From Mesodorylaimus sp. YZB2_4 (lineage: Eukaryota > Nematoda > Enoplea > Dorylaimida > Dorylaimidae): DNA of 64,000 nt. The position numbers were made by a program, and so were the translations under genes. The stretch is from contig JASANH010000183.1 of the NCBI GenBank assembly GCA_030248295.1, positions 186,001-250,000 of the forward strand. Direction: 5' to 3'. Positions 3,961 through 53,681 of the stretch are shown here, in pieces. A model generated the notes under the pieces. The model searched no databases, was not told the origin of the DNA, and was given only the letters and a program-made list of their open reading frames with translations. Position 1 is the stretch's first letter. The number at the start of each line of letters is the position of its first letter.

Positions 3961-4869
3961 GAAATAAATGTGTAATTTTTTGAAAATCGATAACGCATCA
4001 ACTTTTCTTCGGAAGATTGCTCCCCATGATAAACAGAGTATTCATTATCACGGTGCCATGGCACAAGCAGCCCCTCTCAGCCGCACTGCTCATCATGGAT
4101 CTACTTTACAAGCTGATAAAGTGAAGAAGATCCATGCTGCTCATAAACGACTGGGACCATAACTTCAAATTTTTTATAAAAGCGGACATTTCCACTTCTT
4201 TCACACCTCACAAATACTGCACATATTTCTGTCGTCTGACTCCAAACATTTGCAAGATATGACAAGGCAACCTCGCTAACTATTGCGTCGAACTCAACAA
4301 AACCAAAAATTGTAATTTGTTCCTGTGTAGGTGCAAAATAAAGCACTCTGAAAAATATCAGGGGCGTCTGACCAATCGGTCAGCAGTGGTCAGCGCCTAA
4401 AGTCCTGGGAATTACTTCAATTCTTCTAGATTTTTTTCCCGAAACCCGAGTGTTTTAAACTCAAAGCCCGAAACCTGAAAACCGGGTTTGGAAAGAACCA
4501 ACCTTTCTCAACGCTCGGGTTCCTTACCATAAAAGAATTCGAAATTCTCAGGATTTTGGGCCACTGTCACTGCTGATCAGTTGGCTAGACGCCTCTGATA
4601 TTTTGCAGAAAGCTTTCCTTTGCACCTAGAAACACATTACAATTTTTGGTTTTGTAAAGTTTGACTTGACGGCTTACGATGTTTCCTTGAGTCATTTATG
4701 TTTTCTCTGGTCTCAAATGATAATAGTGAGAAGTTGACTTGTAACCCTAGTTATTAGTAGGAGAAAGGAAGCATGCAGGATATTGATCTCGTGTCATTCA
4801 TTACACTGGAGTGGTTGGAGAAAAAGTGCGCAATCGCTAGGTTTGTCAGCGGCCATTGCAAACACCATC

Positions 4870-6722: not shown

Positions 6723-7345
6723 AATTTCGTTTGAAATATTTTGAAGGTCATAAATTTTTAGTCCGATGAACTTGAAAGATCTTCTTTGATTTAGAATAGT
6801 TGTGTTTAGTAATCAGGTGAAAAAACCAGCGTGGTACATCTTTCTTGCTTTTGCAAGGAATCTTACCCTTGCGATGAGCAAGCTGGTGTAGCAGTGCTCG
6901 CAGTCATTACTGCTTCCGGCAAGCTTTCAATATCGGCCATCACGTGGGGTCATATTTCTGATAAAAGTACGGCATATACAATAATTTGATGTTCCAGGAA
7001 ATTTTATACGCCAATTTTCTCTCCATTTATTTCGAAAGTATACTTTAATGTTCAAATGTTTAAAAAAATGGCATGGGAGTTTTTGTGGCTCATTACGACA
7101 ACTAATCCGTTTTATTGAGGAGCTAAGCCATATTACACGATGTGCCAGTCGTTGACCGGCCATCATACAATCATTGCAAACAGAAAAACTACTGTCCACA
7201 AAGCTTATACAAGGTGAAACAAACTAATTGTAGTTTGAGAATAATCAGGTATAATAAGAACTGTCGCAAAAAAAATACTTGCACTGCCAACCATTTTTTA
7301 ACGACTGTCCACTGATTTTGCTGACCGACTGTTTTCAGTGATTAT
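6723..7345. other. Gap between the DIM-1-like and receptor genes
   Basis: This is the spacer between the stop of the DIM-1-like gene and the iGluR-like start, both on the - strand. A 90-codon frame at 6927-7199 shows no domain. I see no further Ig exon here, which supports the terminal exon placed at 7346-7386. Confidence 0.5.
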
Positions 7346-29123: not shown

Positions 29124-32100
29124 TTATCCACTCCTAAACACGTTGCCGTCGAATTTCCTCCACTTATTGCCGTATATTGGTGTGGCAGTGTAACCCACAA
29201 CCGCAGCAGTCGAGTGAGCAGGGCTGGCTTGTTGATGAGATGAGGGTGTGCTCGAGACTTGTCCAAGAGACGGTTGGGCGATGCCTCTGGCCTGCAGTCG
29301 CTTGCGTGCTCTTTCCAACAAATTCTTTGAGCTTCTCCCATCTCCGCAGTCCTCTGTGCATGCGAAACTAAGAAATTGGGCTATTCCACATGCATTGGCA
29401 CCAGCCTCCATCCGAAAATATCCTTTTTCACCCCAGTCCGTGTCCCATGTGTTTCGTATAATGTAATAAGGGGCTGCGGGATCAGTAAAATCATAGCCAA
29501 CAATCACAACAGCGTGGTTTGGTTGCGCATCTGCACCCTCGCATTGACTAGCTCGCATTATGCCGTCTGTGTAGTATTGCCAGTGATCTGTTACTGCCAC
29601 CAGTGCTACTACTGGTCCACCCTGTAGGAGTGCAGAAAGACGAGCCTTTTCCAAATTACCACCGCTGCTTACATCGAGGTAATATGCTTGGCGCACCTAA
29701 AATGGTGGGATGCAGTGACAAGAGGCATTTGTAATCGCTTCTGATTGGCGAACTAATGACCCTCTGAGTCTTCAAGCTTTGATCAGTGTGCTATCAGTGA
29801 CCAACATTTCGTTCTGAACTATTGTATACAGTGATCATCAATCTTCCACGGAGTGCCATTACTATATGATTTTAACCAGCGCACCCAGGCGACGGGAGAT
29901 ATGAGAGACCAAAGCCTCGAGGGCAAAACAAAAATTCCGAATAAAGCAAGGCAAGTCTTGCGACTATACCTGCGTCTGAAACATCAACTTGACTGGTTGA
30001 CGTCTCCCAGTCAGGGGAGAGTCGTTATTATTATCAGCTCTGCCAAATCCCTTGAAGTGATCAGTGCGATGATTAGATCCGACTAGATCGCACCACTGCC
30101 GATAATCAGATCAGATCAGATCACCAGTGATTTTCGATCGATCCGACCTGATTTTCTGCGGTGATTGGATTCTATTAGTGCTTGCTCTGATAGAATCTAA
30201 CCACCGCTGTTAATCAGGTCGGATCGATCTTCTCTCCTCTGTTTGGCTCATGATGTATCAGTCTAGCACAACGTGTCGAGCAGGCACGAGTTTCTGACCA
30301 GCCACTCGTCCACGGGTTCTTACCTGTATAACAGGCTTATCCGACTGCACACAACTCAATTCGGCTCCCTTGCATGCCTTATTCGCTTCATTCTGGTAAG
30401 GATAGCACGTCTCCCTCGGCCATGCGCAGTCGTTAGTGCCAGTGCAATTGGCATTCGTCTGCAATACCAAAAATGGACGGCCACCGTCGCACCCTGCGGC
30501 AGCGTCGCCGTGAATACAATCCAGGACAAACTGGGGCGCCAGAACATGCGGCTCCTTCTCGTTGTGGTCAATAGCCCATTGCATGCCTGTCAAATCCGAG
30601 GTGCTAAACGCGTAGCACGAGCCACATTCCTTCTGGTACCTAATCTCAGGTACGACGCCTTCGTCTCGCCAATCGTATTTGTCAGGTACACCAGACACCA
30701 TCGAGCTAATATCAAAGTCGAATTTTTCAGCTGGATTCAACGGTTTCAGGGCGCCAGTAAATTTTTGCAGGAACTCCGAAAATGGTCTATCCATAAATTT
30801 TGTTTGCCCAAATATGGCATCGCCTGGATTTCTTTTCATCGCGTTTAATGCTTCGATTCGCTTGATAGCGTTTTGAAAAAAATCGAAATGGGATTCTTCT
30901 TCATATTGATTGGCGAATGATTTATTTTGCTTTTGTAAGAACCTTTTGTAAGCTTCTTTGAGCACGCATTCCGGGCAGTTGCTACCAGCACCATTTTTGA
31001 CATTTTCGAGACCTAAACCTTCCAGACCAGTCTTGGCTGGACCATTTTCACCACCCAAGCTGGTTGCAATCTTTTGCTTGAGGTCTGGACTGGCTAATGG
31101 CGCATTGGCTGGCCCGACATTCGCTATTGCAGTGTGCATGCTGGATTCGGGAGCCTGATTGTGAGAGTTGCTGTCGGATGAGGGACTAGACGATTTTGAA
31201 GGGGACCCGTGAGTTGCAGTAGACTCTTTGACTGATTTGGCCGGGGGTGCAGATTTTACAAGTGGCTGGTCAGTTTCATGATTTGATTGCGGTGCAGCCG
31301 GTGGGTTTCCTAGAAAAATCTTATTAGAACTTACCCAAGATCTACAAGATTTTGAAAGTTTTGACAGCGGCGCCAGGTTCTCACAAAAAACGCCAAATTA
31401 AGTGTGGATTAAGTTTCTGACTCACTACCAGTCGAAGAATCGTGCCCTAGCTTGCGGCAAGGCAGCTGCAAAGCGATCAGGAAAAGCAATAGTTAGAAGC
31501 CCTTTTATGAAGTCATGCAATTGCAATGTTAATTGAAAACTTTTATTATTAAAAGACAGGAATGTTTCAATACCAGTAAACTTTCATTGGCTCTTACAAA
31601 AAACTGCGAATCGCAAAAGCTGTTACGCAAATAATAGAATAGTTCACTCAGACAAAAACCCAAAGGAAAAAACCAAACTTTGTGCCTCCTTAAAGTTTGT
31701 CCACGAAAAAAAAAAATTTTTCTTGTGATATGACTGAGTGGAGCATTGTTACACTTACATAATGTATACTGTGCGTGCCGCCCAATGCGCAGAAAAAGGT
31801 GGCCAAGCAAAGCTCGCATATATTTCTTGCAAAGTTGAGAGAATTAGTGAAAGCAGGTTGATAAACTGTTTGATAAGCAAAGCAGCAGCGAGATACGATC
31901 GGCTCAGCGTTTCGAAGCAGCAAACTGACCGTTATCCGAGGCTCCCGTGTCGCACTGCGGAATGAAGGAGTCGTACGATAGAGAATCAGATAAATTGGGC
32001 GAGCTCAGTTTATCGGACTTGACGAAATAAAAGTAGGATAGACCGTTTTTATTTGATCGCATAAAATAATTGCACTGAAAACAATGAAAGTGGGTGACTC

Positions 32101-32914
32101 ATTGGAAAAATGGACAATGGTTTCGGAGGTAGTGCTAAACACCACCATCAAAGTTTTGAGCTTGACCTCTGCACTGATGCCGTACAGTACGAAGACTTAC
32201 TGAAGATTTCTGGCATATTTTGGCGCATTCGCTGATTGATGTGCAAGTATCCGTGAATTTATGGTTGTAATCGGGAAATTGGGCAGAGCCGTCGAAAATC
32301 TCCGACAGGACACTGGATGGATACACTGACATTGGGCAGGCACCTCCTAAAAATTGGGAGATAATGGAAGTGACCTACGATACCTAAATAAAATCTGTAC
32401 AATATAGCTTACCTTTTCCGCCTCCAGAGGCACTTGCTGCCTGGCCACCTCCACCACCGCCTGCTTTTACAGGTGTTTGCCCCTCGGATGGTGATTTCTG
32501 TTTATTATCGCCATTCTCTTTTACTGCAGCAGATGGGGCTGGAGCTGGAGCTGGCGCTGGTGCTGCCGCTGGCGCTGGTGCTGGCGCTGGCGCTGGCGCT
32601 GGTGCTGGCGCTGGCGCTGGAGCTGGCGCTGGAGCAGGAGCCGGAGCAGGGGCTGGGGCTGAATTCGAACTTGAACTTGAAGTTTTCGATCCGGGCTTCT
32701 CATTTTTGGCCAACGGACCACCGATTCCGTAGTCCCTTTCCACGCGTAGTCGGACTATGGTTTCATCAGTATCCTCAATATCATCGCTTTCAAATGGGAG
32801 TCCTACAAAAAAAACCGATAGTTATTCATTCCACTCGATTCAGGGACCAGTTCACCCACCGCTGCATAGCGTTAATGAAACCAAAACCACAATACACGCC
32901 GTTTTTCCCACCAT
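29124..32914 (-). CDS. Secreted C1A cysteine peptidase with internal PAN-like module
   Basis: Six exons join in phase: 32914-32860, 32802-32413, 32346-32201, 32074-31930, 31309-30324 and 29696-29124. They give 764 aa. Order: signal peptide (MVGKTACIVVLVSLTLCSG); acidic segment and DYGIGGPLAK (about 40-52); Ala-Pro linker; a PAN/apple-like Cys module (about 149-245) with ECAKICQKSSCNYF; a Ser/Pro linker; I29 propeptide (about 362-430); papain-like domain. The triad is C477 (CGSCYAFS), H635 (PNHAVV) and N656 (RNTWDTDWG). The oxyanion Gln lies six residues before C477, and GCDGG is present. Tyr after the catalytic Cys, rather than Trp, recalls cathepsin C. The C-tail of about 60 residues has no second module. 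It should be a secreted or lysosomal endopeptidase made as a zymogen. Propeptide and first half of the catalytic domain share one exon, unlike its + strand paralogs. It points away from them. Confidence 0.87.
29875..30019 (+). repeat. Dispersed repeat family D, copy 1
   Basis: It starts ACCAGCGCACCCAGGCG and ends GAAACATCAACT then a short spacer and CAGTCAGGGGAG. The copy at 52161-52313 has the same ends and GGCAAGTCTYGC blocks. This copy lies in the last intron of the - strand peptidase. A SINE-like element is likely. Confidence 0.6.
30055..30235. repeat. GATC-rich repeat patch in peptidase intron
   Basis: Words such as GATCAGATCAGATCACC, GATCGATCCGACC and CAGGTCGGATCGATC crowd the intron between 29697 and 30323. 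Halves 30090-30150 and 30170-30225 are partly inverted relative to each other (TCTGATAATC... against ...GTTAATCAGG). Same family as the 3.9 and 4.9 kb patches. Confidence 0.5.
32530..32650 (-). repeat. Ala-Pro coding minisatellite in peptidase exon 2
   Basis: The + strand shows GCTGGCGCTGGTGCTGGCGC-type units that encode about 38 alternating Ala-Pro residues in exon 2 of the - strand peptidase. The 6-bp unit is expected to vary in length between individuals. The same Ala-Pro theme recurs in the separate protein at 43223-44658. Confidence 0.75.
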
Positions 32915-33502
32915 TTCGATTGCTTGATAATCGGGTCAAGAATATGAAGCTACTCCCTAAACAATGATTCCACACAATTCTGACCTTCTTATTTGTACAC
33001 AATCCGCTGCCAAAAACTACTTTCGATCTCCTATTTTAGGCACCTCATCCCACCTGTTCAAGTCCCGCCATCCGTCTTGCATTGAGACTCGCACTTACGC
33101 CACCAGTAAAACATCCATTTCAATTTCATACGCAGCGTGTATCCTTCACTTTGGAATCAATCATAGCATCACTTTCGGTGATTGATGTACATCAGCTTGT
33201 CCAAAAGTTAATTATATTGACGGCAGGGTGCAAACAAAATAAAACCAAGCAAAAGTTTGGGCACTTTAGTTTAAATTAGAGCCAAAACTGTGTCCTGCGT
33301 GCGATCGCTGCGATATTTATTGCTGTGATTTCTTTGATTAAAATTTACCGCCGAAGTATGAAAATGATTGCTCATAAATTCATTCTCACACATTTAAATT
33401 TTATTGCACATTTCAGGAAACCACACTTTATAAAATTCCTTTGTACTCCATGGTACACCTTTATTCCTCAATGTGTCAGGGGAATAAGGGGAGGACTCAA
33501 AG

Positions 33503-35730
33503 TTATTTCACTCCTGCATTTCCTAAAAATGTAATTATCCACAAATATTAATTATTCTTAATTAATCCCTCAGAAAGCATTTCCATCAAATAAAGCCACG
33601 AATCTTTTTTCACTTACCACTCTTCTCAATCAGAATTGCATCCGTAACAGCCACCCACTCTTCACTCAAATCTTTTAGAAAGTTCGCTAGAATTTCAGAC
33701 CTAAGCGAATCGTCTTTGTAATTTCTGAGGTAAAACGGATGGCCTATTGTGGAAAGAGGAATTGACGAGAATGCGTGAGGAGGCGAAGTGTGGAATGGAG
33801 GCGGATTGACGTGTTTAGTCTCGTCTAGTTTAGGTGGCAGACCTTTTGTACAACCAGAACAATACTACGTTTGGAGAAGTACAGAGGTTTGACAAAATGG
33901 AATGGCAAGGACAAGATTCTTGTTGCTGAACTTCAAATAAAAGACTACAAATGACACCGTTTTGCTTTCTTGACAATGATGCCAAGTCGAAGGCAAGAGT
34001 TTGTTCCTAATCCGAAAAAGATACGCGCTGAATGACCGTCGTCCTGCAGGAAAGAATATGCATTTTAAAAGCCAACATATTCTCGGTTTAAAATACGGAG
34101 TATCCACATTTAGAAAACTGGTTCAACTGAGGGGGGATTAGCAATTTGTTTGTCACATGCATTTATTTGACCAACAGTTTTTTTAGGTCCTGGTTCCCTT
34201 TTAGCAGAAACTGGTAAATTTATTTCCGCCGCCTACTTGCACTTAGAATGGGTGGATAAAATAAATGATACGAGTGTGGACTGTCACTGAGAGTGATTTT
34301 AAGGGACAGGTCAGGAGTGAATGCGAGCATGGTGACTGACTGGTCTTGAGTAATGTGACAGCAAACGAAAGGGGGCACTTTGCGAGTTTAGCCAATGTCT
34401 TACAGTTAGTTGGGTTCAAAATTTTAAATGTAGCAGCAAAAGCTCTGACCTTGCCAGTTTAGGAAATCAAAAGCATCAAAGGAAATCAAGCATGCAGTGC
34501 GATTAAAACCACGGCTACTTCACGCCCAGCTACTACGAGAAGGCGTTGGATGCGACACCTGTTTACCGGCGATACGTGACAGCTCTTTAGTCTGTTTTCT
34601 ACTACTTCTGCTGTTTCTCTTTAGGCTCTGTTTTCGGCAAGAAAGCGCATCCGCCCATAAATGCAATTTGGACAGTACGACGGTTGGCACGAGTTGCAAG
34701 GAGCATGTGAGAACGGTCCAGACCTTCTCGTGCCAGAGACGATCTAGATTATGTAGCTGTGTTATATCCCACGAGGAAAGCGGCCCCGATCGTAGAATGT
34801 TACACTGGAGAGTCCCCTCCTCAGTTTTTACAAAGGATATGCCTCGTTGACCCGTACCATTTCAGGTAAAAAAAGAGTTTTGAGTTTTCCAACGATTATC
34901 GCCAGTCTCTACTTGGGCCTTCGCCTCACCTTTGCCTTTGCCTCTGTCTATTGGCTGAGGGAAAGCAACCAGGGTTGAATTTCGATAAAGACAGAGTCCA
35001 ATTGGGATGGTGTCCTAGACACATCCAAAGGTGTAAATAAGCGCATTGCCTCAGCACAATCCTCGTGTTGAGACAGTACAGTACTGTAGGTACCTTGAGT
35101 GAGATCTTGATGCTCTTGTAGAGGCTCGACTGGCAATCGATACTCTGCACGGAGCCGGCAGATGGGATCGTCACCCGTCAGGGTGACGTTTCAGCCATGT
35201 ACTAGGTCGGAAGACTTATCGTTGGTAGGCTGCCCTGAGTTTTTGGCGTGGTGCAAAACCTCCACCGGTCACTCCCTCCAGTAATACAGACCCAGCCGTA
35301 TTACACTCTGGTATTCCAAAGAAGCTGCCGGATGAGAGCCTACTTGAAGGGTCCCGAGATAGTGATGTGACTTCTGTCCCAACATGGACAGGGGTGCCTA
35401 CGCTGGTCTCTGCAGGCTCGAATCACTAACTGCGCAGTCCCAATAGCTGGACAACAGCAACGTGTTGAGTTTACTATGCCTACTAGCGGACACCTCCACG
35501 ACGGGTCGATCGTACACGAATACACGGGCAGGTAAATTACAGTAACAGTAACATTTTCTCTGTGGTCAACTAAGTGCCAAAAAGACTTTGCGCCTCAGAC
35601 ACTCACGCGTTAAGGAGACATCAGATCGATAAAGTGACATCACACTGCCAGATATTTTGAACACATCTGATTTGAAGAATGACTTGACTTTTAAAAACCA
35701 GAGTAACAAGTCTGTGGAATCAAATTTGGG
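33503..35730 (-). CDS. Unrecognised multi-exon gene, 5' end unresolved
   Basis: Four exons chain in phase: 35730-35607, 34043-33958, 33864-33618 and 33522-33503 (stop). They give about 159 residues. The joins use CTTTTCACAG, TTTCCTGCAG, AACGTAG and ATTTTTAG acceptors with GTGAGT, GTGTCA and GTAAGT donors. The product starts KFDSTDLLLWFLKVKSFFKS and contains a His/Cys cluster, HHCQESKTYCSGC. It also has HPFYLRNYKDDSLRSEILAN and ends EKSGNAGVK. The first coding exon, expected upstream of 35730 with a phase-0 donor, was not found, so the record is partial at 5'. The Cys/His cluster could bind a metal, but I cannot name a family. It occupies the gap between the two divergent peptidase genes. Codon usage in exon 3 looks genuinely protein-coding over 82 codons; the last 6-codon exon is the weakest call. 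Confidence 0.45.
35118..35307 (+). repeat. Dispersed repeat family B, + copy
   Basis: Matches 48313-48482 on the - strand over about 190 bp. Shared blocks are TAGAGGCTCGACTGGCAATC, TCAGGGTGACGTTTCAGCC, AGGTCGGAAGACTT, TCCACCGGTCACTCCCTCCA and GTATTACA. A shorter relative with GTGATGTTTCAGC and GAGTCGGAAGACTTGC lies near 48920-48985. This copy is inside the intron between the first two exons of the unrecognised gene. Confidence 0.7.
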
Positions 35731-36757
35731 CTGTGAAAAGAAGTGAAAAGGAAGACGTCTAGCATACATAATGGTGGTCTATCGAATGGCGAGTTGGGCA
35801 AGTGGAAAATTGCCTCATCAAATATTTTACGTGAGTACACACGGCTATAACATATCACTGAATCTGTTGTGGATTTTCTGGCACATTTGGCCACCACTAA
35901 TTATAAGTCAATCAAGACGATCCTAAGAGAGATATACATAAAATAACAGAATCCCCTATGAAGAAACCAGTCCTTGGCACGCCTTTCTAACAAGTGCTGT
36001 AGACACCCTTAAACAAGGATTTGCTTTAATTAACGTTAAAAATTTTAAAATACATGGAAAAACCCATGCCACACTTTTTCCATGACAAAAACGTTAAAAA
36101 TTTCATAGCCGGAGACATGCCATGATTGCGAGTGGCCAATACCAACTTTTCGAACACATTCTCTCGCACCCCACTCTCATCGCTCACGAAGGTTGCACCC
36201 AAGTGGAAATGGCTGTGTCACCTTTCACGGAATAGAAGACTGATGACATTCCATTGTCACGGTTTGCTCTGAAGTTCTGAGAAAGACCCTGCCCAAAATA
36301 AGAAGGCGATAGTGTTCGAGTACGGCCTCTCCGCTGTAGTCATTTCGCGATGTCCAGTTCTTCGTGCCTACCTACTTTCAACGATCGCATGACCACATCG
36401 CTTTAGGCAGTGGCAAAATAAAGACGTTACGTAATACCAGTTCAGTAATCATCGATGGCCAGAGTTTAAGATGGCCAACAAGGGCATACGCAGTGAAAAC
36501 AGTATTTTGCCATGCTCTAATTGGCCCATGAGAGAGATGGTCATGGTAGAAGGGTGTAGTTCTTTTGTGTGGATACTCTAAGATCCAATACATCACCATT
36601 AAGGGCGTCAAAGAGCACTTGAAAGTGAATACTGTTGGTTCATTTTTGAGGTCTCCATTTGGGGTGTATTAATTCATTGGCTTGTCACAAAAGCTGGTCT
36701 GAAAGTTTATGAAGATTGCAAAATTTGTTTGAGTGGATCTACAGTAATTGTTACTTG

Positions 36758-39700
36758 ATGATAACTCCGTATAAGAGGATGTTACCGCTTATGGCAGCTG
36801 GTAAGCGATGTGGCTCGTAGGAGCGCTGATGGGAGAATGCGATACATATGGCAAAGCCTTTTGCTGAGAAAAGCGGAAATTCAGAAAACTTTCCGGATGG
36901 GGTATCAATTCGCTTAATTGCACTATCTCCAGAAATTACAAAACAGGCTGTTTCAGTCTGACTGCTACGAGTTTTTTCTCTTTTAGCATTAATATTCGTT
37001 CACTCATGCAACGCCGATTACAGCGGTATTGGAGGCCCATTAGCGAAGTCAGCCCGTAAACCAGTGCCTTCAAAAACCAGGACCACACAGTTTCCAGACA
37101 TCGATGCTGGTGAACCAAGTTTGCAAGAACCCAGTGCAATAATCAATGCAGCTATTATTCGTGAAAATGCCACCGTACCTCCGTCAGCTGTGGAGACGCC
37201 ACAAATTTTCTTACCGACACCTGGCGAGTACAGTAAGTACTGTATCTATCTTTCATGGGGGCACATTGAGGCTACCAACAGAGCCACAGGAGTTGGCAGC
37301 ATAGCATCACTGTACAGCTTAGGATACGCCTGATTTTAGTTTCATCACCCCCCTTTGACCTGTACTTTAGCACTGCACATTGACCCTATGCACCATCTGT
37401 CTTGCTTTTTCTAACGATAAGTTGACCTTGCATCCTTGTGCATAGTCAATAGTCGACGCAATGGCTATAAGGAAATACAGAAAACGTATTTCTGTTTCTG
37501 AATTGTTTAGGTGACATGTGCTGCTGGGAGCCATACAAAGGTCAGGTGCTCACAGATATTGCCGAAGGACATATTTCGAAACCGTTTTATGGCTATGTCA
37601 CCACCGAATCGTGCAAGGATACAAATAGTTGCTTACAGAAATGTACTAAAGAAAAGGTAAGCACGAAAGGCGTGGAATTTTTAACGACAGAGTCTCACCC
37701 AGAGTATCTTTTCACTTTCCGATTGTCTCATGGGTTCTTTGAGCCAGAGAGACTGATAAATGAGAAGAGGTCGAGAGGACTCAATCTTGGCTTCATGTTG
37801 CAAATGGTCTCAAATTTTTCCTTGCTGCTAATAAAACACATTTTTGAAAATCGTGGTTGCTGAGTGTCAAATAGTCAGTCGTGGCCAGCGTCAAAGTCAC
37901 CAAACTTTTGATACAAGGGGTCGATTTTCGCCAAACAAACAGACGCCGCCTATCTCTCATCAAAGGGGTCGAATCCCCCACGCAAGATATTTGACCCTTC
38001 TGTTACTAGATCACAACGGTTGGCCACCTCGTCATCAGCCTCCAATATTCTAAAAGATATGTTGTACACACAGAGAAGGCTTCGTTAGCACATTTTACAA
38101 GCCGTATCTGTCTAGGTATATAACACTTACAAGAGCTCTTTAAAGCACTTGACTGGGCCATCACATCATGCACATCGTGCGAACCAAAAGTATTGCAAAC
38201 GAAACATAAACATGAGCCTTAGAATGATGAAGGGATACGTTATGCCCTTCCCATGAACATCATCAAAAAATGTATTGCTCACAAATTTTTTTTTCTCTAA
38301 AAGTTCAGAGACACTGGTGACCTGCGAATTGCACTTTACAAAGCTGCTAAAGTACAAATATTGTGAACTGCCTCTTTGAACAATTGCCTGTCATCGTTTA
38401 ACACGCGTCCCACAGTTTCTTGAAGTTCCATCACCACACTTAAAACTTTTTACAAACATCAAAGAGAGCGATTTTCTTTTTCAGTGCAACTACGTGGTTC
38501 AGCACAGCTCGAACAGCTCTGCTACACTGTACACAGTACACAGAGAAAAGACAGGCAACCTATCCGATACTAGCTTCACAAAAAGCGATGACGATTCCTA
38601 TGTACGACGTTGTTTGAGAGGTAAGTTTTGAGCATTATAAACTTATTATTCTAACCTAATCCTAGTTTATTGGTCCGCTATTAAACATGCAGTATATTTA
38701 TATAAAATTACACCGCATACATATATAAACACTACATGTATAGTCTTATATATATACACTGTATATCTATGATTCTGGGGCATATACGCAAGACAGCACA
38801 CACAGTACACATATGCCGGGGACCTAAAGAAACTTGCAGTCTTCTAGCGCACAGATAGCAAACTACACGATTTTATCGGCTGCTTATTCTGCCTGATAAC
38901 GGCATACTTTTCCTCGCAGAATACGACGTGACACCAGGCTGCACTGAATTAGTGGCAACTTCTTGTCCATTGTGCGACGAATTCTTCGAATTCGTCATCA
39001 AATATAACAAAACTTACAAAGGATGCGAATTTTTTCGACGCTTTGAAATTTATAAACTAAATAAATTAAAAATTTTAAAAATGAATAATCAGCGTGTACT
39101 GGAGGAAGATGCATCATTCGCAATAAATCGTTTCGCTGATTTTACGCACGATGAATTTGTCAAGTCGTTCACTGGAGCTATTCCAGAAGACGCCATTCCG
39201 AAAAGGAGAAGACGTCAAGCCACTTTGCCACCCGGATTAAAACCGATGACCGATCCTGTCATTAACGCAAGCGGTGCTCAAACCTTGCAGTTAAGGTAGT
39301 TATCTCAGTTTTGAATTTCCCGCCATTTTAGATTTCGCTTTTGAAAGTAAGAGAGGTCTACCAGCAGTAACGAGGTGCAGCCTTTGCAGGGTAAATTGGA
39401 CCCTTGAGTGCGAATCCACTTTTTTGACACGCATCGCACAGCAAATATGATTGAGACAAGACTGTTGGGGGATGCAGTGAGGAATTCAAACAGAGACCGA
39501 AATAAACGCTTTTTATCAGCACCCATCTATCAAAGTACAATAATGTAGGTTTCTGTAAAATTTTCTGTCATTTCAGGCACAACTGGGCCGCATTCGGGGT
39601 GATTCCTGCAGTCCGTGATCAAGGTGAATGCGGATCATGCTATGCATTTACAAGCACAGATTTGGTGGCAGCGCAGCACGCCATTGACCACGACATCAAT

Positions 39701-41772
39701 CATGCCTTCACCTTAGCCCCGCAGTACATATTGAACTGTTTTTCTTCGCCAGCCGCCTTCGGCTGCGATGGTGGTCGGCCGATGCTGGTCATGAAAGAAC
39801 TATCGAAATGCATAAACAATACTGAAGAAAATGCCTGCATGTTCCCCCTGGAAACATGTTTGCCTTATCAGAATGAGGCAGCGAAAACGTGTAACAAGCC
39901 GAAGCAATGTCCTGGTGCGCCAAATATTCAGGTAAGGAAAGCCCTGGGCTACCAAATCCAGCACATTACCCCGACGGCACCCCCTACCCCATCAGGCCTC
40001 TTCTCGTTTACCAGCCCTGCTGCAGGATAAAGGAGGGAGCAAGGCGCAGATAAGGCTTTCTGTCAACCGGGGATCGAACCCTGTTGCTACTGTACGGCTG
40101 AAAATCTCGCACATTTCACGTCCGCCGAGCAAGTAGTGACAGACGCTTTTCGCAGCCGCCACTGAGGCGGCTTTCTCGCAAATTCCCGTCTACTATGCAG
40201 GGGAATCAATGACTCACGATGCGTGAATGACAGAGGCCCACTGCGTTTTAGGTCAAGCAATACAACATGGTCTCAACTAATGACTACCTGGAGAAACAAA
40301 AGATGGCTGCTCTTCTAATGAGAGGCCCGTTGGTAGTTCAAATCGACGCTACTGAGGAGTGGCAGTTCTATTCAGAAGGCGTGCTTCGAGTGTATCAATG
40401 CACGAATAAGACAAACCATGCGGTCTTAATGACTGGATACGATTTTGGGGTGTCCATTCCTGCTTATATTATCCGGAATACCTGGGGTGAAGATTGGGGA
40501 CAGAAAGGCTATATTTACATCGAAGCTGGGGTTAATTGCTGTGGAGTTGGCCAAACTGTCACCTATGTGTGCACTGATAAGTGTGACGTAAATGAGAAGT
40601 TTGCTAAAATTCCAAGCCCGACCACAGCCTCCATTCCTTTGCCACCGACCATGCCACCAACTCCATTATACCCACCAGGCTCACCATCTCCGCTTATCCC
40701 AGAACCGTCATTTCCTCCATGTGCCGGTGGTAATTGCGGAGCTCCTGGGTCGACGGCATCGCCCGGATCGCCCAGGCCTCCTATTCCAACTGAACCATCT
40801 TACGTTCCTGGCCCTTCTTACATACCAGCCCCAGCTCCACCGCCTTACGTTCCTCAACAACCGCCACCGAGGCCATACGTGCCAGAACCAAGGCCTGCAC
40901 CATACTCGCAACCTGCCGTTCGACCACCGCCACCTGACTATGCCCAGCCGAATCCTCAATCTGCGATTCGTTTGCTATCAAATGACATGAGCGATCACAA
41001 TCGGGCTCTTTCCACGAGTAAGTATCCAAGCATAGGACCTTCATATAAGTTTGGGCTTTGTGACTGTGAGACTTTAACAGATTCCTCAGGCTCGGAATGC
41101 CAACTATTTTCACCCATTTCAGGCAGCGGATGTCCAATTTCAGTATTCCCCGCAAGCATTCTGTCAGATCTGGTTGCTGGTGCTAACCCCACAACGCCTG
41201 ATATTATCCTGAAATTTACAGATTCCTGTCGAATTAGCGAGTGTGGCAAGATTTGCGAAAAGGCGCAAGTAAGTCGTCAGTGTGCGGCCATGCATTTTAC
41301 AATTAAGCCCTACTCCACATGTAGAATTCTGCAATTCTTTTTGATATCGCTATCAAAAAACGTTGGATTCTTAAAGCCTGGCGCTCAAAGAAATTTGCAG
41401 TCTTATACTGCAGCACGCGCATACAGTACACTTAGACCTTTCACGCAGAGATTGTAGCTCCATGACTGGTGCGGCTCCATGAAGGCTCGATCCTACGTGC
41501 GGACAGGGACCTACGGAACATACACAAAGCTGTGTAGGCCAACCACCAACCCAACTGCGTGTTGGTGCTATGCAGTACTATATCATACCACTGCATTTCA
41601 GTGCAACTATTTCGTCCGGTCGAGTGGCAGCGGTCTAACAAACTTTTATACAGTGAATCCAGAACGACTCCGATCACCGACACTGGTCGACTCGTCCAGC
41701 TTAGATTCCTTTGTACCGCAATGTGCCATCGATAAACGTCGACGATTGACAAGGCTGATAGGCCACAAATAA
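36758..41772 (+). CDS. Secreted C1A cysteine peptidase with PAN-like modules at both ends
   Basis: Nine exons join in phase: 36758-36800, 36987-37232, 37511-37656, 38485-38620, 38920-39295, 39577-39931, 40252-41017, 41123-41268 and 41602-41772. They give 794 aa. Signal peptide (MITPYKRMLPLMAA + ALIFVHSCNA) is followed by DYSGIGGPLAKSARKP. Next come PAN-like module 1 (about 98-190; SCLQKCTKEKCNYV), an I29 propeptide (about 200-275; YKGCEFFRRFEIYKLNK then INRFADFTHDEF) and a basic KRRRRQ site. The papain-like domain has C337 (CGSCYAFT), H490 (TNHAVL), N510 (RNTWGEDWG), the oxyanion Gln and GCDGG. A Pro-rich hinge (about 545-680) leads to PAN-like module 2 (about 691-785; ECGKICEKAQCNYF). It is likely secreted as a zymogen; KRRRRQ suggests convertase processing between propeptide and enzyme. 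The paired terminal modules are unlike standard cathepsins. Confidence 0.87.
39955..40110 (-). repeat. Possible SINE remnant in peptidase intron
   Basis: On the - strand GGTTCGATCCCCGG forms a good B-box consensus inside the sixth intron of the + strand peptidase. No clear A box lies 30-60 bp upstream of it. I regard it as a degenerate tRNA-derived repeat and not a tRNA gene. Confidence 0.3.
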
Positions 41773-43222: not shown

Positions 43223-44658
43223 ATGATTCGACTCCTAGTCGCGATCGTCGCGCTTAGCGTATTTGCTGGTGCTGGTAAGTGTAATGGGATAGTCACAAGG
43301 AGACTGGACCGGAGAAGAAGACTGAAGACTTAATTTTACCCTTAGCTCCGCTTATCAAACAAGCTCCAGCCCCAGCCCCACGACCTGAACCAGCGCCAGC
43401 TCCACGACCAAAGCCAGCACCAGCTCCAGCCCCACGACCTGAACCAGCGCCAGCTCCACGACCAAAGCCAGCACCAGCTCCAGCTCCACGACCCGAACCA
43501 GCGCCAGCTCCACGACCAAAGCCAGCACCAGCTCCAGCTCCACGACCCGAACCAGCGCCAGCTCCACGACCAAAGCCAGCACCAGCTCCAGCCCCACGAC
43601 CCGAACCAGCGCCAGCTCCACGACCAAAGCCAGCACCAGCTCCTCGACCCGAACCAGCGCCAGCTCCACGACCCGAACCAGCGCCAGCTCCTCGACCCGA
43701 ACCAGCGCCAGCTCCACGACCCGAACCAGCGCCAGCTCCACGACCCGAACCAGCGCCAGCTCCAGCCCCACGACCCGAACCAGCGCCAGCTCCAGCCCTA
43801 CGACCCGAACCAGCGCCAGCTCCACGACCCGAACCAGCGCCAGCTCCGCGACCCGAACCAGCGCCAGCTCCGCGACCCGAACCAGCGCCAGCTCCACGAC
43901 CCGAACCAGCGCCAGCTCCACGACCCGAACCAGCGCCAGCTCCACGACCCGAACCAGCGCCAGCTCCACGACCAAAGCCAGCACCAGCTCCAGCCCCACG
44001 ACCCGAACCAGCGCCAGCTCCACGACCCGAACCAGCGCCAGCTCCACGACCCGAACCAGCGCCAGCTCCACGACCAAAGCCAGCACCAGCTCCAGCCCCA
44101 CGACCCGAACCAGCGCCAGCTCCACGACCCGAACCAGCGCCAGCTCCACGACCCGAACCAGCGCCAGCTCCACGACCCGAACCAGCGCCAGCTCCACGAC
44201 CAAAGCCAGCACCAGCTCCAGCCCCACGACCCGAACCAGCGCCAGCTCCACGACCCGAACCAGCGCCAGCTCCACGACCCGAACCAGCGCCAGCTCCGCG
44301 ACCAGAAGGACCGTTGTCGTGCGCTCTGAATCAAGCTGGTCAAGATAAGCCAGAACGTGAGGGTCCCTCTAATAACAAGGATAAATCAAAGAATAAATCA
44401 AACAATAAATCGAAGAATAAGTCAAAAAACAAATCGCGCGGCAGTGGCGAAGGAAAGGTCAGGCCAGTCCCTCCTCAGTCGCAACGACCAGGCCAGGGCA
44501 GCCCCGGAAATGGCAGTCCACCTCGTGGAAGCAGCATCCCCAAGCCGAGGCCTGCTCCTCGACCCGTTGTTAACAACCCTGTTAATGATCCCAATGCGGG
44601 CAAAGGTGACGCAATCGCATTTGCTCTCGACTCTCAGAGTCGAGAGCAAAAGCGATAG
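43223..44658 (+). CDS. Secreted Ala-Pro-Arg repeat protein
   Basis: Two exons, 43223-43274 and 43346-44658, join at phase 1 and give 454 aa. Exon 1 encodes a signal peptide (MIRLLVAIVALSVFAGA). Residues about 18-340 are near-perfect repeats of the 8-mer APAPRPEP with RPKPAPAP variants, alternating Glu and Lys between Arg-Pro steps. A single Cys (PLSCALNQAG) follows, then a Lys/Asn/Ser-rich stretch (KSKNKSNNKSKNKS) and a Pro/Gly/Arg tail ending SREQKR. The protein should be extended and polyampholytic, and secreted. A coating, lubricating or matrix role is possible; that is inference. It sits between the two + strand peptidases and shares Ala-Pro linkers with the - strand one. AATAAA at 44767 is the likely polyadenylation signal. 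Because of the 24-bp unit, antisense frames stay open for 306 codons, but they lack start context and splice support. Confidence 0.8.
43355..44310 (+). repeat. 24-bp coding minisatellite (APAPRPEP)
   Basis: About 950 bp of tandem units of the form CCAGCGCCAGCTCCACGACC plus CGAA, with CCAAAG variants that give RPKP. Unit purity is high, which suggests recent expansion or gene conversion. Every third unit or so is a longer CCAGCTCCAGCCCCACGA version, giving a higher-order pattern. Confidence 0.9.
44621..44649. other. 14-bp perfect inverted repeat at the PAPR gene stop
   Basis: Left arm TTGCTCTCGACTCT (44621-44634) and right arm AGAGTCGAGAGCAA (44636-44649) are exact complements around one C. 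It sits in the last codons of the PAPR gene, ending 9 bases before the end of the stop codon. Related GACTCTCAGA and GAGAGCG words follow. It would form a tight mRNA hairpin. Confidence 0.75.
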
Positions 44659-46775: not shown

Positions 46776-49700
46776 ATGGATCAACTTAGGAGGCAGTTAT
46801 TATTATGCGTATTTGGTAAGTGCATGTGATAGAGGAAGTGCCTGTAGCGATGGATGCTTAATTGTGGCGATAAGTTTGATCCTTTGTTCCTTTCTTCATA
46901 GAGACAAGGCTTGAGGCGTCCAACAAAAGGGCTATTTGCTGAGATTGCTTGACCTGTGTTGTGCTGATCCCCGAAGAGTCACCAGAGTTGTATCAGGATG
47001 TAAAACCCCATGCATATGCAAGGAAACATGTGATCAAGGATCCCGCCGAAAAAGCTCCACATGGATCTTCTCTCCGCAAATCATCTCCTCAGTTATCCTC
47101 CTCTTTCAGCCACCCTCTGGCTCTGCCTAGCCGCCGAGTACAGCAATGTGGGCGGACCATTGGCCAAGTCGGCTCGTAAGCCACCCATATCTAAAACACG
47201 AACTACTGCATTCCCTGATGTGGACGAAGGTGTGCCAGAGCCTAGTTTTCAAGATGTAAATGCCAAAATCAATACCGAAATTGTTAAACAAACTAATTGG
47301 TCAACACCCGCTGTCGGCGAGAAACCACAGTTCTTCGAAGCTGGACCTGGAGAATATGGTGAGCACTTGCAAGTTGTCAATCAGTATTTCTTGGCTTCTT
47401 ATGAGCAAATATTGTATTTGTGCACTGTTACCCTCTCAGTATTCCTCGGGTCAGGGCCCACTAAACTACCCACCCCACATCACTTATGAAGCCGACTTCC
47501 AGCCATAACTCCCACAAACAAAAATAAGAGCTAGATGTTTTCTTTTACTTCTGAACAATATGTCTTCTTAACTCTTCTTTTGTATTCTGATCATATGTAT
47601 AAGCTTTTGGGAGGGTGGGGACCAATTTAGCTGTCTTAAATTTAGATAAATCGCCTTGTGCCGGTCTCAAAAATGGACATCGAAATTGTATTAGCCCCTT
47701 CGGCTGTAGTCTCCTTTGAAATTTTATAATCCCTTGGCCAAAAACCTCAGATATAGTTTACATTGCCTGAGAACCACTATGTGAAACTACAAGATAGTGT
47801 CTTGCCCCAAATTGATCTATGAAAAGTGCAGGCCGACCTCCTGTCGGTTCTCGTGCGAACAACGACGATCAATCAAGATCTGTCAAACAGACCTGTTTGT
47901 TTCAGAAAAAATAAAAGAGTTGTGGGTTTGGTGTTCAAGTACTACGCAACAGATCATACTTTTTCTTCTGAAAGTACAATACTTCCGCGTTTCGGGTCGA
48001 CTTTGACAGAGTTGAGTGGCTCTTTAAATTTTCGGAAATGGATTTAGTGCATCGCGGGCCGCGGGCGCTGAAATTGCAAGAGATGAGGAGAAATTTTGGT
48101 GGCGTACTACATTTTGGTCACGTACTCCTTCCCATTAGGGTGGTCCCGTATGATGGAGAGGGGACAGAGATGAATGAGTGCCCTGTATGCGACTGCACTG
48201 AAAGATTGATACAGTGATAAGTGCCTTGCTGGGAAAGAAAATGCACCTTGAGGCACAAGCTTGCTCTACTTGGAATACAGTGCACAACGCACAGGTTCTT
48301 TGTGCATCATACTGTAATACGACTGGGGTCCGTATCACTGGAGGGAGTGACCGGTGGAGCTTTTGAACCACGCCAGAAACCCAGGGTAGCCTAGCAAGTC
48401 TTCCGACCTATTACATGGCTGAAACGTCACCCTGACCGTTGACGCTCCCAGCAGAGTGTCGATTGCCAGTCGAGCCTCTAAAATACATGCAGCCCGCAGG
48501 TCTAAACTTCTTAGGTTCACTTTCCCTTTCAGGGGATATGTGCTGCTGGGAACCATTTCAAGACCAACTACTCAATGATATCGCTCAAGGCAAGGCTGCC
48601 AAGCCCTATTATGGCTACGTTGGTACAGAGGACTGCCCTGATCCGAAGAAATGCTTGGAAAAGTGCTCACAACAGCGGGTCAGTACATATTGACCTTTTA
48701 TGCGAGATCTGCATGTGTGAGGGGGATGGGTATCAAAGGCTATTTGAATATGGTTTCTGGTCTATTTTTGCTTCGTATTCACCCAAGCAGTACGTCAATA
48801 CGAGAGGCAATGTAGAAGTTTGACGCCTGCTGCTTTTTTCGGACCCAGGAACAAAGAGAATGGCTCATGTGACCCTCGTTACTCGTGCGGGTAGTGGTCA
48901 GTGGGAGAGGATCAATGATCTTCCCTGGCTGGGAGACTTCAACCCCCGGGTGATGTTTCAGCGAGTCGGAAGACTTGCTGCACCAGTCGGAGTTGTTGCC
49001 CCACTTCGGTCGGTCGCATCTTCTCCCAAGCCCGCCTATACGAGGGTTGCATTCAACTGGGCAAAGTCAAAAACTTAAAAATTCGTATCAGTTGACAGTT
49101 TGTGCACAGCATCCACCACGTTGCTTAATCAGCGATACACGACTCAAATATGCTCCCTGAGACAGCTGACAAGAAATTTGCCTTTAAAAGGTGTCCTTTC
49201 ATTTCAGTGCAATGTCGTAGTGTGGCACAACCAGAACAAATCGGCAAGCTTCTTTGTAGCACACAAGGACAAGGTATTCACCTTGCTGCCCAATAACTTC
49301 ACGAAGCAAGAGGGCACCGACACATTGGTCCGTCGTTGCTTAAGACGTAAGCTTGTTTTTTATTTTCTTTAATATTAGGGTACAGAAGTATTTATGAAAG
49401 AACACCTTGTACGGAGAAGCTGTAGCGATGTTTTTCTACAGAAGAGAACACAGCTCAATTTCGCCAGTCCTTTACTGCACACTAAAATATCAGCCTAGAG
49501 CTACTAGACGCAGAATAGCTGAAGAGAGTGGAACGCGGATAGGAAAAGAGATCTGTTTGGGTCAGAAGCACTAGAATGTGCATGTGGGAAACTGGACTGC
49601 TTCAGGAAGAGTATAAGAAGTTACTGAGTTGAAAGGTGATGTGATGATTCGATGAGAAGAAGGAAAGGTAATTATCGCAAAAGTCGCGACAGAAGCTACC

Positions 49701-52700
49701 GCGTTGGATAAGACTTATATGCTTCAGGTATATCGTGACGAGAACGCAAGACAAGACCCCCTGTCCTTTCCGAGGACCTCCTGGGTATCTTTGTTTCTCA
49801 AAAATAGGAATTCAAACCTAGATTTCACTTCTAATTACTGAATGCGGGGCAAAGCTACACCTAACTAGTTACTGAGGCTGTAGCTTTGCCCCACATTCAG
49901 ATGGTAATTACAGATAAAGCGGATGAAGTTCGGAAAGAGTCAGAGTAGCTACCTAATAAGTATCCTCGAAACATAAGAGTTTGCAGTACTGTATATTTGA
50001 TTATCTTACTGTTTCGTAGTCTTGTATTGTAACGCTGCCTGAATAGATATAGCATATCTACATTATGCATTGGACTTGCGGATGCATGTAAATATATTCA
50101 GTATTTATGTACTCCTTGCCCCTAATCGTGAATTATATAAAAACAGGTCGGGGCCCGATGAAACTTCAAACCACCCCTCCTTTATGACGTAGACGTAGCT
50201 GCAATGTCGCTTGTTCATAAGAACCCCACAATCCACAGCAAACCTGAGGGGCCCTCTTTCTTCTGCGCTTATTTTCTAAACTAATTAGTTTGAGGGCGAT
50301 GGGAATCTTGTAAATTTTGCTACTCTTTGGTAGTTTTCTCAAAAATATTTTAAAATATCTTTAGGTTTCAAAACTAGACATTAAAGTTGTATGCCCTTTC
50401 ACTCATAGGCGCATGTTTGCTCCCTCTAAACCTTACAGTACTGTATAAGCTCTAGGCGTACAGTGCAAATGATACGCTCGAACCTGCTGTTTGTTTTCTT
50501 GGCTAGTCGTACCTGCCTTGGCCTGGTGGCATATGCATTTGCAACCACACATGTAATATAACAGAAATTTTTCCGAGCTAGCACTTCTATAAAGCACTTA
50601 AAAATTAATCTATCATTTTTTTCCTAGCCTCGCCATCTCAATCATATTCATGATCCATTTTTTAGAATACGATGTCACTCCTGGTTGTAACGAGCTTGTC
50701 GCTTCCAGCTGCTTATTATGCGACGAATTTTTAGACTTTGTAAAAAAGTATAAAAAATCTTACAAAGGATGTGAATTTATTCGCCGATTTGAGATTTTTA
50801 AAATAAATAAACTAAAAATTGCTGGTCTCAATGAAAAACGAGTTTTGGAGGACGACGCCACGTTCACTGTGACCCGATTCACGGATCGATTGCACGACGA
50901 ATTTGTGAAGCTGTTTACTGGTGCAGTCACCGACAAGGGTGTCAATGTGGCTGGTGATAGTATCGTCAAGGATGCACTAATAAACGCGACTGGAACTCTA
51001 GAATTGAAACTGAGGTAAGTCGAAACTTTTAGACAAATTTGCAAAGTGCTGACTAAAAAAGTTACATTTACCTTTGCCAGCCTGCAGTCAGGTTGGGTTT
51101 CAAGGCTCCAAACCTTTCACAAATAATGGGTTTCAGATTCGACTGGCACGAAAAAGGAGTCATTCCAATTGTTCGCGATCAAGATGAATGCGGCTCGTGC
51201 TATGCCTTTACCAGCACTGACCTCGTGGCCGCTCAGCATCAGGTAGACAACGAAAAATTAGGCGAATCGATCACTTTGGCCCCTCAGTATGTCTTGGATT
51301 GTTTCAAAGAACCAGCTGCCTACGGTTGTGATGGTGGCCGACCTGTGCTCGTATTAAAGGCCTTGTCTAAATGTGCAAGTAACACTACTGGGTGTGAGTT
51401 CCCGCTGGAAACGTGCTTACCTTACCAAAACCAGGCCTCGACTATTTGCGATAAGCCGCCGAGTTGCCCTGGAGCTCCGAAAATTACAGTAAGTGCCCTT
51501 CACATCACAGTGCAGCAGATTGGTGTGGCTTGGCAGGTGTGGCAGGAATCGGTGTTGGTCAGGGTCGTATTATGATACTGTAGGTTTAACACAGGCTAGT
51601 GTCGGTGTCACATTTCAAAGTCCTCCCCCCCCCCCATGTCGAAGTGTCCCTGTCTAGGGAGGGCTTTGGCACGGACAAAGTGACATGTCAAAGTGCCCCC
51701 AGTACGTATCACAAACTCTTTAACTCAAATCTAGTCAGGTACGGTCGCGATGACGATATATCTAAATTTAGGCCCTTTACACCACTCTCCCACTGTGCAC
51801 TCTACGTACACTTAACCCCTCAACAACACTGTACCAGGTTTTGATCACGCAGCTAATTAAGTCCTATGAGAAATCAAGTCGTGCATAAACGTGCATTCAG
51901 CCAATTCCCTCCCGATCTTGAAATGTGACACCGGAAGTGTCCTGTGCTCTCGGGGACAGCCTAGAGGCACGTCACAGTCAGCTGGTTTTCACCATTTTTT
52001 GACCACTGCACTAGAAGGCAGAGACTGGGGGGGGAGGGTCTTTCCTTGCAACAGTCGATCTCGAACTCAGGGAGACACCATCCTCGACGCGATGGCGGTG
52101 TGTGACATAGGGCTTGATCACAAAACAATCCGAGAAGTCAATCTACAGTTGACCATTGTAACCAGCGCACCCAGGCGGCAAGAGATAGTAACGACCGAAG
52201 TCTCTGGGACTAAAAACTTTGACTGAAGAGGGGCAGGCAAGTCTCGCTACTGTACCTGTCGCAGAAACATCAACTGGAAAGGTTCCCCCCCCCCCCCCCC
52301 CAGTCACGGGAGGTGTCGGTGCCGACCGCCAGGAATGCTAGTTAAACTATTTTTAGAGGCTGACCATAGGCAAGCGCTATACCTGAACGATGTGCCTTGC
52401 ATGTAACAGCAATTTCAGTTTTATACATTACATTGGATTTTAATTAGGATTTTATGCGCGCTTAAAAGTGCAGATTAGACCGAAAGTAACCTTGATGTGT
52501 AGCTTGCACGCAGCAAGCTTGTGTGCGAAGCTTGTAATCAGAGCCTAACAAATGATACTGTATAGCAGTAACACGAATTCTGCTTTGTGACACACTCTAA
52601 GTAGTAGTCAATATATTTAGGGATTTATGGCATTGCTTGTGTAAGATCTGCTGCAGTGCATAAACAAGCATAGAAACAGAAAGAGCTGTCAAATTTCTGC

Positions 52701-53681
52701 ACCAGAAGCGCAAGAAGCTGTGTGACTTCCGTTAGGTGGGTGTAATAACATAAAATTACAGGAAACAAAATTAATACTTCACTGTACTGTACATAATCTA
52801 CCCGTGCCAGACTGGTCATTAGCATGGTACGAAACGCATACACAGTGCTCTTCATATTTCAGGTGGACATATATGGCATGGTCGATCTATCCAGCGATTA
52901 CCTTGAAAAGCAGAAAATCGCTGGTCTTCTTCACGGAGGTCCACTTGTGGTCCAAGTGGACGCCAACGACGCCTGGCAATTTTACGAAAGTGGAATTATT
53001 CGGGCCCACCAGTGCACAACGAAAACCAACCACGCAGTTCTGATGACTGGTTACGACTTCGGTGTGGCAGTCCCCGCATATATCATCCGAAACACATGGA
53101 GCGACGAGTGGGGCAAGACAGGCTACGTCTATTTGGAGGCTGGTGTCAATGCATGTGGTGTTGGACAGGCAGTTACTTACGTTCGTACTAAAAGGGAAGA
53201 CCGCACCACTAAACCAGCACCAGCCACACCCGCGCCCCCATACCCCACTACACCCCCATCGCCACCTCCGCCCGTTTATCCAACTCCAGCCCCTCCCCCA
53301 CCGCCGCCGCGTCCATATGGGCAACCAATTGTGGAACCACCGGCCGCGTCACCAGAGACACCACCCTACGGGTCTGTACCACCAGCCACCGAACCCCCAC
53401 TACCCCCCACAGCACCCAAGTACACCGTGCAACCTGGCATCACATTCCCCTCGCGCTACGCCGACAGTGTCGACAGAGAAGAACCCACAACACCACCAGT
53501 AACGCCAAAACGATGGGGTACCACATTCGGAACGTGGGCTCAGGAGCAGGAGCAACAAGAAGTCCAACGGGACGACGCCTTGCAGTCGAAACGAGCTGGA
53601 GGCAAAAGAAAACATAAAGCTCAACCAGCAGGGCGCATCCGCGGCATTCTAACACTTTTCAAGAATCCTCTTGCTCAGTGA
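46776..53681 (+). CDS. Secreted C1A cysteine peptidase with N-terminal PAN-like module
   Basis: Seven exons join in phase: 46776-46815, 47110-47358, 48533-48678, 49208-49346, 50666-51014, 51137-51488 and 52863-53681. They give 697 aa. Signal peptide (MDQLRRQLLLCVF + ATLWLCLAA) is followed by EYSNVGGPLAKSARKP. Next come a PAN-like module (about 97-191; KCLEKCSQQRCNVV), an I29 propeptide (about 200-270; YKGCEFIRRFEIFKINK, VTRFTDRLHDEF) and a papain-like domain. The triad is C329 (CGSCYAFT), H482 (TNHAVL) and N502 (RNTWSDEWG), with oxyanion Gln and GCDGG. A Pro-rich tail of about 150 residues ends with basic KRKHK and NPLAQ, without the second Cys module seen in the 36.8 kb gene. Exon sizes and phases track that gene closely, so the pair arose by tandem duplication. 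An alternative in-frame Met at 47061 could replace exon 1. AATAAA near 53751 is the likely polyadenylation signal. Confidence 0.87.
48313..48482 (-). repeat. Dispersed repeat family B, - copy
   Basis: Inverted partner of 35118-35307. It sits in the second intron of the + strand peptidase, ending about 50 bp before the acceptor of exon 3. A third, shorter relative lies near 48920-48985 in the next intron. Confidence 0.7.
49839..49899. repeat. Foldback with 21-bp arms in peptidase intron 4
   Basis: Arms 49839-49859 (TGAATGCGGGGCAAAGCTAC plus A) and 49879-49899 pair with one mismatch around a 19-nt loop. CTAATTA and TGGTAATTA flank the arms. This may be a small inverted-repeat transposon remnant. 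Confidence 0.6.
52161..52313 (+). repeat. Dispersed repeat family D, copy 2
   Basis: Same orientation and ends as 29875-30019. It carries a 17-C tract (52285-52301) that is absent from copy 1. It lies in the last intron of the peptidase, the same intron position that holds copy 1 in the - strand paralog. Confidence 0.6.

Follow-up and report, generated by a model that had tools for sequence, protein, structure and literature searches.

A 64-kb window of the genome of the nematode Mesodorylaimus sp. YZB2_4 (contig C23; JASANH010000183.1, positions 186,001 to 250,000, in the 145-Mb assembly GCA_030248295.1) contains three predicted genes, A, B, and C, for papain-type (C1A) cysteine peptidases in which a cysteine-rich (Cys) module precedes the I29 propeptide. 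Our in silico analysis established the gene structures, domain order, triad motifs, and exon phases of this family and revealed that gene B carries a second copy of the module (B2) after the catalytic domain, which groups with the modules of A-type genes. All positions below refer to the window, that is, the whole 64-kb stretch, unless a region elsewhere in the assembly is named.

Peptidase genes of the window and their Cys module

The gene models were assembled manually on the basis of open frames, GT-AG splice sites, and intron phases. Gene A is predicted on the minus strand with six exons (32914-29124), and genes B and C on the plus strand with nine (36758-41772) and seven exons (46776-53681), respectively. 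The introns are of the GT...AG type in 19 of 19 cases and the joined frames contain no internal stops; the first donor of gene A (GTGGGT) is weak, and the first intron of this gene is 57 bp long.

Pfam searches detected Peptidase_C1 in A (E = 1.7e-47, 162.7 bits), B (4.7e-44, 151.5 bits), and C (8.1e-42, 144.2 bits), against a curated cut-off of 20.7 bits, and I29 in the same genes (9.2e-6, 26.3 bits; 1e-8, 35.8 bits; and 3.3e-9, 37.4 bits, respectively; cut-off, 24.4 bits), with gene A entering the search minus its first 19 residues. In gene A, one exon (30324-31309) encodes a linker, CPEC, I29, and the first C1A half with the catalytic Cys, and the next (29124-29696) encodes the second half with the His and Asn, the C-terminal tail, and the stop; both were assigned by Pfam and by alignment to the PDB. 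The corresponding parts of the other two genes, assigned by Pfam, are CPLC plus I29 (38920-39295), the first C1A half (39577-39931), and the second half with a Pro-rich tail (40252-41017) in gene B, and I29 (50666-51014), the first half (51137-51488), and the second half with a Pro-rich tail and stop (52863-53681) in gene C. The triad motifs ECGSCYAF, NHAV, and RNTW were found by eye in all three genes, with the oxyanion Gln in place, and the catalytic residues of gene A alone were aligned to a solved enzyme, dipeptidyl peptidase I (1jqp). This enzyme was also the best PDB match of gene A, followed by midgut cathepsin L; gene B best matched FBSB, then cysteine proteinase B, a midgut cathepsin L, and procathepsin H. 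A search of NCBIfam with a 541-residue piece of B returned no match. From their sequences, A, B, and C are thus predicted peptidases of the C1A papain family, of the cathepsin L/F type with I29.

The signal exons were selected on hydrophobicity, start codon, and splice phase. They comprise exon 1 of gene A (MVGKTACIVVLVSLTLCS; 32860-32914, minus strand) and the starts of genes B (MITPYKRMLPLMAA; 36758-36800) and C (MDQLRRQLLLCVF; 46776-46815), the signal-like peptides of the latter two being completed in exon 2 (36987-37232 and 47110-47358, respectively). Exon 2 also encodes a segment that ends in GGPLAK in each gene: DYSGIGGPLAK in B, EYSNVGGPLAK in C, and, in A (32413-32802, minus strand), DYGIGGPLAK between an acidic propiece with an RVER end and an Ala-Pro linker. 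The initial annotation, which had described three intact C1A genes with I29, a complete triad, a signal peptide, and an IGGPLAK-type motif, was therefore borne out for the peptidases and the motif, and its signal peptides are retained as signal-like starts in all three models.

The Cys module, of approximately 90 residues, was likewise found in all three models as had been described, in each case spread over two exons. Using module profiles, the first and second halves were mapped to 32201-32346 and 31930-32074 (CNYF...QC) on the minus strand in gene A, to 37511-37656 and 38485-38620 for the N-terminal module of gene B (B1), to 41123-41268 and 41602-41772 (the latter ending in the stop) for B2, and to 48533-48678 and 49208-49346 in gene C, where the module profile found no second module. 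The C-x3-C-x4-C-N core given in the initial annotation occurs in all four of these modules; however, a phase-0 intron directly before CN splits it each time, so that in the window genes the core is present only across the splice join and never within a single exon. The module of A, B1, and the module of C are flanked by phase-1 introns on both sides, and B2 has one on the 5' side, its 3' end being the stop. A phase 1-1 exon unit of this kind could be copied into another gene with the reading frame unbroken.

The module precedes I29 in A, B, and C alike, and a second one, behind the catalytic domain, is found in B alone. The earlier placement of the module as N-terminal in C and at both ends in B holds, but the module of A, which had been set apart as following an Ala-Pro linker, is also N-terminal of I29; the description of the module as standing at shifting positions is wrong for A and C. 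Movement of the module is supported once: B groups with C in the tree of C1A domains (support 100/99), whereas B2 groups with the modules of A and of the paralogue C64 in the module tree (96/99). A copying of the module into the tail of B thus seems to have happened, and "mobile" applies to this event and not to any shift of position among A, B, and C.

If B2 were instead part of a separate downstream gene, the two-ended B protein would be an artefact of joining. The module is N-terminal in the other genes seen, as this alternative would have it, but an open frame of 401 codons (40252-41454) runs from the second C1A half through the Pro-rich tail into the first half of B2, and since one open frame spans both, the link of B2 to the peptidase does not depend on splicing. 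Further along the plus strand, the next C1A match is gene C (at 51141), which has a module and a start of its own. We regard a separate downstream gene as very improbable.

Relatives in the genome and the conserved N-terminal segment

A search of the genome with the Peptidase_C1 profile gave 81 exon-level matches among 88 candidates scored. We fetched 20 regions, which cover part of these places, and on the similarity of their C1A halves 16 loci in these regions and the window belong to the same group. The module recurs in four paralogues on other contigs (C64, C50, C20a, and C112), upstream of C1A. A profile of the four window modules matched C64 (E = 4.4e-15 and 1.2e-10) and C50 (2e-13) clearly, and C20a (0.0022 and 0.099) and C112 (0.017) weakly. 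We accepted C20a and C112 on the grounds that their modules lie upstream of C1A, after the GGP(L/V)A segment, and contain an internal intron. Two separate exon profiles built from the window modules gave E values of 2.4e-23 to 2.7e-29 on their own modules, which are in-sample, and of 9.1e-13 and 5.7e-18 on C64, which was outside the profiles. On these sequence comparisons, the similarity of the module among the paralogues is far above chance.

The internal phase-0 intron was also seen by eye in C64, C20a, and C112. Both phase-1 flanks are visible by eye in C64, the 5' boundary of C20a is ambiguous, and the C50 module lies within one exon. Four cysteines are invariant in all eight modules at about 19-52% identity. 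The C50 module lacks both the first and the last Cys, and this joint loss fits a disulfide between those two residues.

A further module-bearing C1A copy, C20x (region L021, 2055-4261; contig C20, 518 kb), matched an enlarged module profile (E = 2.2e-4). An in-frame stop and a frame break led to its exclusion from the C1A tree (15 loci) and from all exon joins; it is probably a broken gene, and its C1A part is highly similar to the copy at 401 kb. The module was also found in a gene on contig C61 (region L072, 1311-2664; E = 2.6e-9 and 8.8e-9 with the enlarged profile, that locus being searched alone), which consists of a signal-like start, RLER, DYSTGIGGPVA, and two module exons. No I29 or C1A was found beside it in the 7 kb fetched, and the contig had no C1 match in the genome search; the frames downstream, read by eye, are presumably alpha-L-fucosidase-like. 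The module was not found in the three units on contig C33 or in C468, C266, C45, C112x, and C20c, where exons that are split and diverged could readily escape detection.

The segment (D/E)Y-x(2-4)-GGP(L/V)A was found in ten genes (A, B, C, C64, C50, C20a, C112, C266, C45, and C61), a count of those found, in part by motif scan, and read by eye. It is present in eight of the nine module-bearing genes, the ninth being the broken C20x, where we did not see it; the motif scan and reading by eye also did not reveal it in the three C33 units, C468, C112x, or C20c. In B and C, the segment directly follows the signal-like peptide. In the other eight genes it is preceded by a mostly acidic stretch with a basic end, 0 to 2 residues ahead of DY: RVER in A, C64, C50, and C112, RRER in C20a, RLER in C61, SRR in C266, and DKR in C45. 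Because the segment follows a signal-like peptide or a basic, cleavage-like site in all ten genes, these sequences suggest that cleavage exposes the same N-terminus in each of them. A search of the open-licence PMC literature for the letters GGPLAK led to unrelated papers.

These patterns bear on the view that A, B, and C belong to an ordinary expanded family of digestive or lysosomal cathepsins, their additional N-terminal segment being a fast-evolving linker that the enzymes can do without. Two of the C33 relatives seem, by eye, to pass from a signal-like start directly to CPxC and I29, there is free variation in the low-complexity linkers (Ala-Pro and Pro-rich), and the presence of the module is scattered on the tree, all of which would suit a dispensable linker. 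Such a linker would hardly keep four cysteines through all eight modules at so low an identity, nor GGP(L/V)A in nearly every module-bearing gene, and the module appears again on the tail of B. We therefore consider this view unlikely.

Two C33 relatives (regions L018, 3544-5084, and L019, 3878-5206), in which the module was not found, read KCASSYAF where CGSCYAF or the like stands elsewhere, so that Ser replaces the catalytic Cys. They are possible pseudopeptidases by this substitution and would resemble silicateins to some degree. A CPxC motif directly before I29, at the start of the I29 segment, is found as CPEC in A, CPLC in B, and CPEC, CPTC, and CPAC in C64 and two C33 units; gene C has CLLC.

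Near the protease genes in the window, other open reading frames have matches to an inward-rectifier potassium channel and to an ion channel of the ligand-gated (glutamate-type) class, as fits animal DNA. At 43223-44658, in the interval separating gene B from gene C, a signal-like MIRLLVAIVALSVFAGA is followed by a long PAPRPEP tandem repeat, and the product is perhaps a secreted proline-rich structural protein. A 499-residue open frame at 18469-19968 consists mostly of Gly, Met, and Asn (GGMGG/NGM repeats) and possibly encodes a structural protein as well. Elsewhere in the assembly, adjacent COX1-like and nad4-like frames, the latter recognized by eye, are present in two opposite copies (2601-4832 and 5784-8514 of region L050) on contig C73, which is of nuclear size; these are either nuclear mitochondrial insertions or an assembly join.

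Possible PAN/apple likeness of the module

The initial annotation had called the module PAN/apple-like. In PDB searches with a 4-row and an 8-row module profile, which listed 5 and 2 sequences at E <= 10, respectively, saratin was the top match of both (E = 0.047 and 0.066), and the alignment extended to the last Cys. The saratin fragment itself scored 20.3 bits against PAN_3 (E = 5e-4), the curated cut-off being 21.1. PAN_1 domains are abundant in this genome: a PAN_1 search listed 149 matches among 150 scored of 606 candidates, and none of the module loci was among the 149. When the module profile was aligned by hhalign with 26 domains taken from these matches, the score was 19.4, compared with 15.1 for the reversed profile; none of 300 shuffles reached it (maximum 15.8 in 150 column shuffles and 19.0 in 150 with the Cys columns fixed). 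A control profile was built from the 14 of the 26 domains that were translated. With a profile of PAN domains of this genome run on single modules, the module of gene C scored above 1000 shuffles, and that of C20a tied with the best shuffle.

Several results weigh against a PAN-like fold and against the explanation that we build on it. No Pfam PAN match was obtained at E <= 10 in any of the eight modules, with single exons as well as joined proteins searched. In the best genomic PAN_1 matches a single open frame covers most of the profile; the module, in contrast, is interrupted by an intron. The control profile listed 30 PDB sequences at E <= 10, including plasminogen, HGF, MIC4, kallikrein, and, weakly, LAPP (E = 0.19) and factor XI (0.62), but saratin was not among them, and this lowers our confidence both in the fold and in our preferred explanation. 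The hhalign probabilities were low: 9.2% over 31 columns for the 26 domains, 5.7% over 14 columns for the 14-sequence set, and 10.4% for the module against the saratin fragment. With the profile of PAN domains of this genome on single modules, 3 shuffles reached B1 and 10 reached A, and the other four of the eight were outside the best 18 rows. An AlphaFold model had a confidence score (predicted local distance difference test, pLDDT) of 42, which is uninformative on the PAN topology of one helix on a five-stranded sheet because introns of A, B2, and B1 were read through in the input. As for the history of the family, the split from conventional cathepsins in the C1A tree is weak (75/85), and only one of the five inner branches of the module tree is well supported. 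On the C1A tree, the presence of the module requires five changes; the same low number sufficed in 184 of 500 shuffles of the labels, and the tree is therefore uninformative on a single gain.

The cysteine pattern also differs. The second strand Cys, which is nearly invariant in the 14 aligned PAN_1 domains of this genome, is absent from all eight modules, and all eight have an extra Cys ahead of the helix pair. The module may thus be an unrelated, lineage-specific disulfide domain that resembles PAN only in its C-x3-C helix and serves as an extended pro-domain aiding the folding or inhibition of the peptidase. The missing Pfam match, the low hhalign probabilities, the failure of the control profile to list saratin, the distinct cysteine set, the internal intron, and the place before I29 all agree with such a domain. 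The rank of saratin, its alignment as far as the last Cys, and the shuffles that never reached the real score do not; nor would a pure folding aid be expected after the catalytic domain, as in B2, or in a gene beside which no peptidase was found, as in C61. We consider an unrelated domain a substantial alternative, with about one chance in three in its favor by our judgment.

A PAN-like fold is, on balance, slightly favored by these profile comparisons. PAN/apple identity is plausible, and only weakly supported, on the strength of the saratin match and the shuffles; we do not claim membership in the PAN family. The Pfam check named in the initial annotation, in which PAN/apple-like folds flanking I29-C1A would have counted as support, recovered I29 and Peptidase_C1 and no PAN domain.

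The only match of the saratin fragment was on contig C146 (region L071, 37-483; E = 0.12), where a 148-residue Cys-rich frame with LDECREECARREECYFAM perhaps encodes another PAN-like protein. A leech origin of the DNA, suggested by the saratin hit, was discarded on the basis of this single match.

Proposed role of the pro-region and comparison with known systems

We propose that A, B, and C represent an expanded family of secreted C1A zymogens whose long pro-region would act as an anchor plus an inhibitor. Its order would be a processed (D/E)Y-x(2-4)-GGPLA N-terminus, a spacer, the disulfide module of probable PAN-like fold, and I29. Binding of the module to a protein or glycan is most likely, and would keep the zymogen outside the cell. 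In cathepsins of the L/F type, activation removes the I29 propeptide, and since the module precedes I29, it would normally leave with the propeptide; cuts at I29 would then free the catalytic domain in A and C. B2, a phase-1 exon unit that would have come from an A-type gene by copying, would stay on mature B through the Pro-rich tail and could hold that enzyme bound. The suggestion in the initial annotation that the module retargets secreted proteolysis may therefore apply to the placing of the zymogen, and to a mature enzyme only in B. From the sequences we infer secretion, binding, location, and the order of processing, together with the fold and disulfides considered above, and we judge the anchor-inhibitor explanation as a whole to be evenly poised.

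A bolder extension treats four elements, namely the signal peptide, the basic cleavage site, (D/E)Y-x(2-4)-GGPLA at the N-terminus, and the PAN-like module, as one portable, secreted address unit belonging to this lineage. Carried on phase-1 exons, the unit would place cathepsin zymogens, would have been partly copied onto the tail of one enzyme, and would also be made free of a peptidase (C61), its exposed GGPLA N-terminus being a conserved ligand. We offer this extension tentatively and think it rather doubtful.

If the anchor-inhibitor explanation is true, these papain-type proteases would offer a natural case of placement by a pro-region binding module in an animal. With a module left on mature B, the effects of anchoring the zymogen and of anchoring the enzyme could be set side by side in a single gene family. 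The PAN-like modules would also gain a variant whose disulfide set differs, and a conserved N-terminus formed by processing would be added to those described.

Like C1A enzymes of the cathepsin L/F type, A, B, and C have I29 and Peptidase_C1 above the cut-offs and the Gln, Cys, His, and Asn motifs; they differ in the long pro-region with the GGPLA segment and the Cys module, and in B2. The usual cathepsin motif is SCWAF, and all three have SCYAF. The module resembles PAN/apple proteins such as leech saratin and LAPP in its C-x3-C helix followed by a strand Cys and the last Cys, but it differs in having no Pfam PAN match, in lacking one canonical Cys and gaining another in all eight copies, and, in the window genes, in its internal phase-0 intron. 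According to PMC7191736, LAPP is a PAN protein that binds collagen.

Other accessory domains have been joined to C1A enzymes. In Aphanomyces, according to PMC10084794, C1A is fused with CBM1, ML, or CAP domains, and PAN occurs on subtilases and not on C1A; the likeness lies in a secreted papain-like enzyme with an added binding domain, although theirs is C-terminal and of other families. The 26/29 kDa C1A peptidases with an N-terminal LolA/EPDR domain and a prokaryotic lectin-C1A fusion, as given in PMC10380794, similarly carry an accessory domain on C1A, but its fold differs. No animal PAN-C1A fusion appeared among the papers listed by our searches of the open-licence PMC literature, which is not proof of absence, and none is described in the available parts of PMC1192801, PMC7191736, PMC10084794, PMC10380794, PMC6757440, PMC3026763, and PMC7285336.

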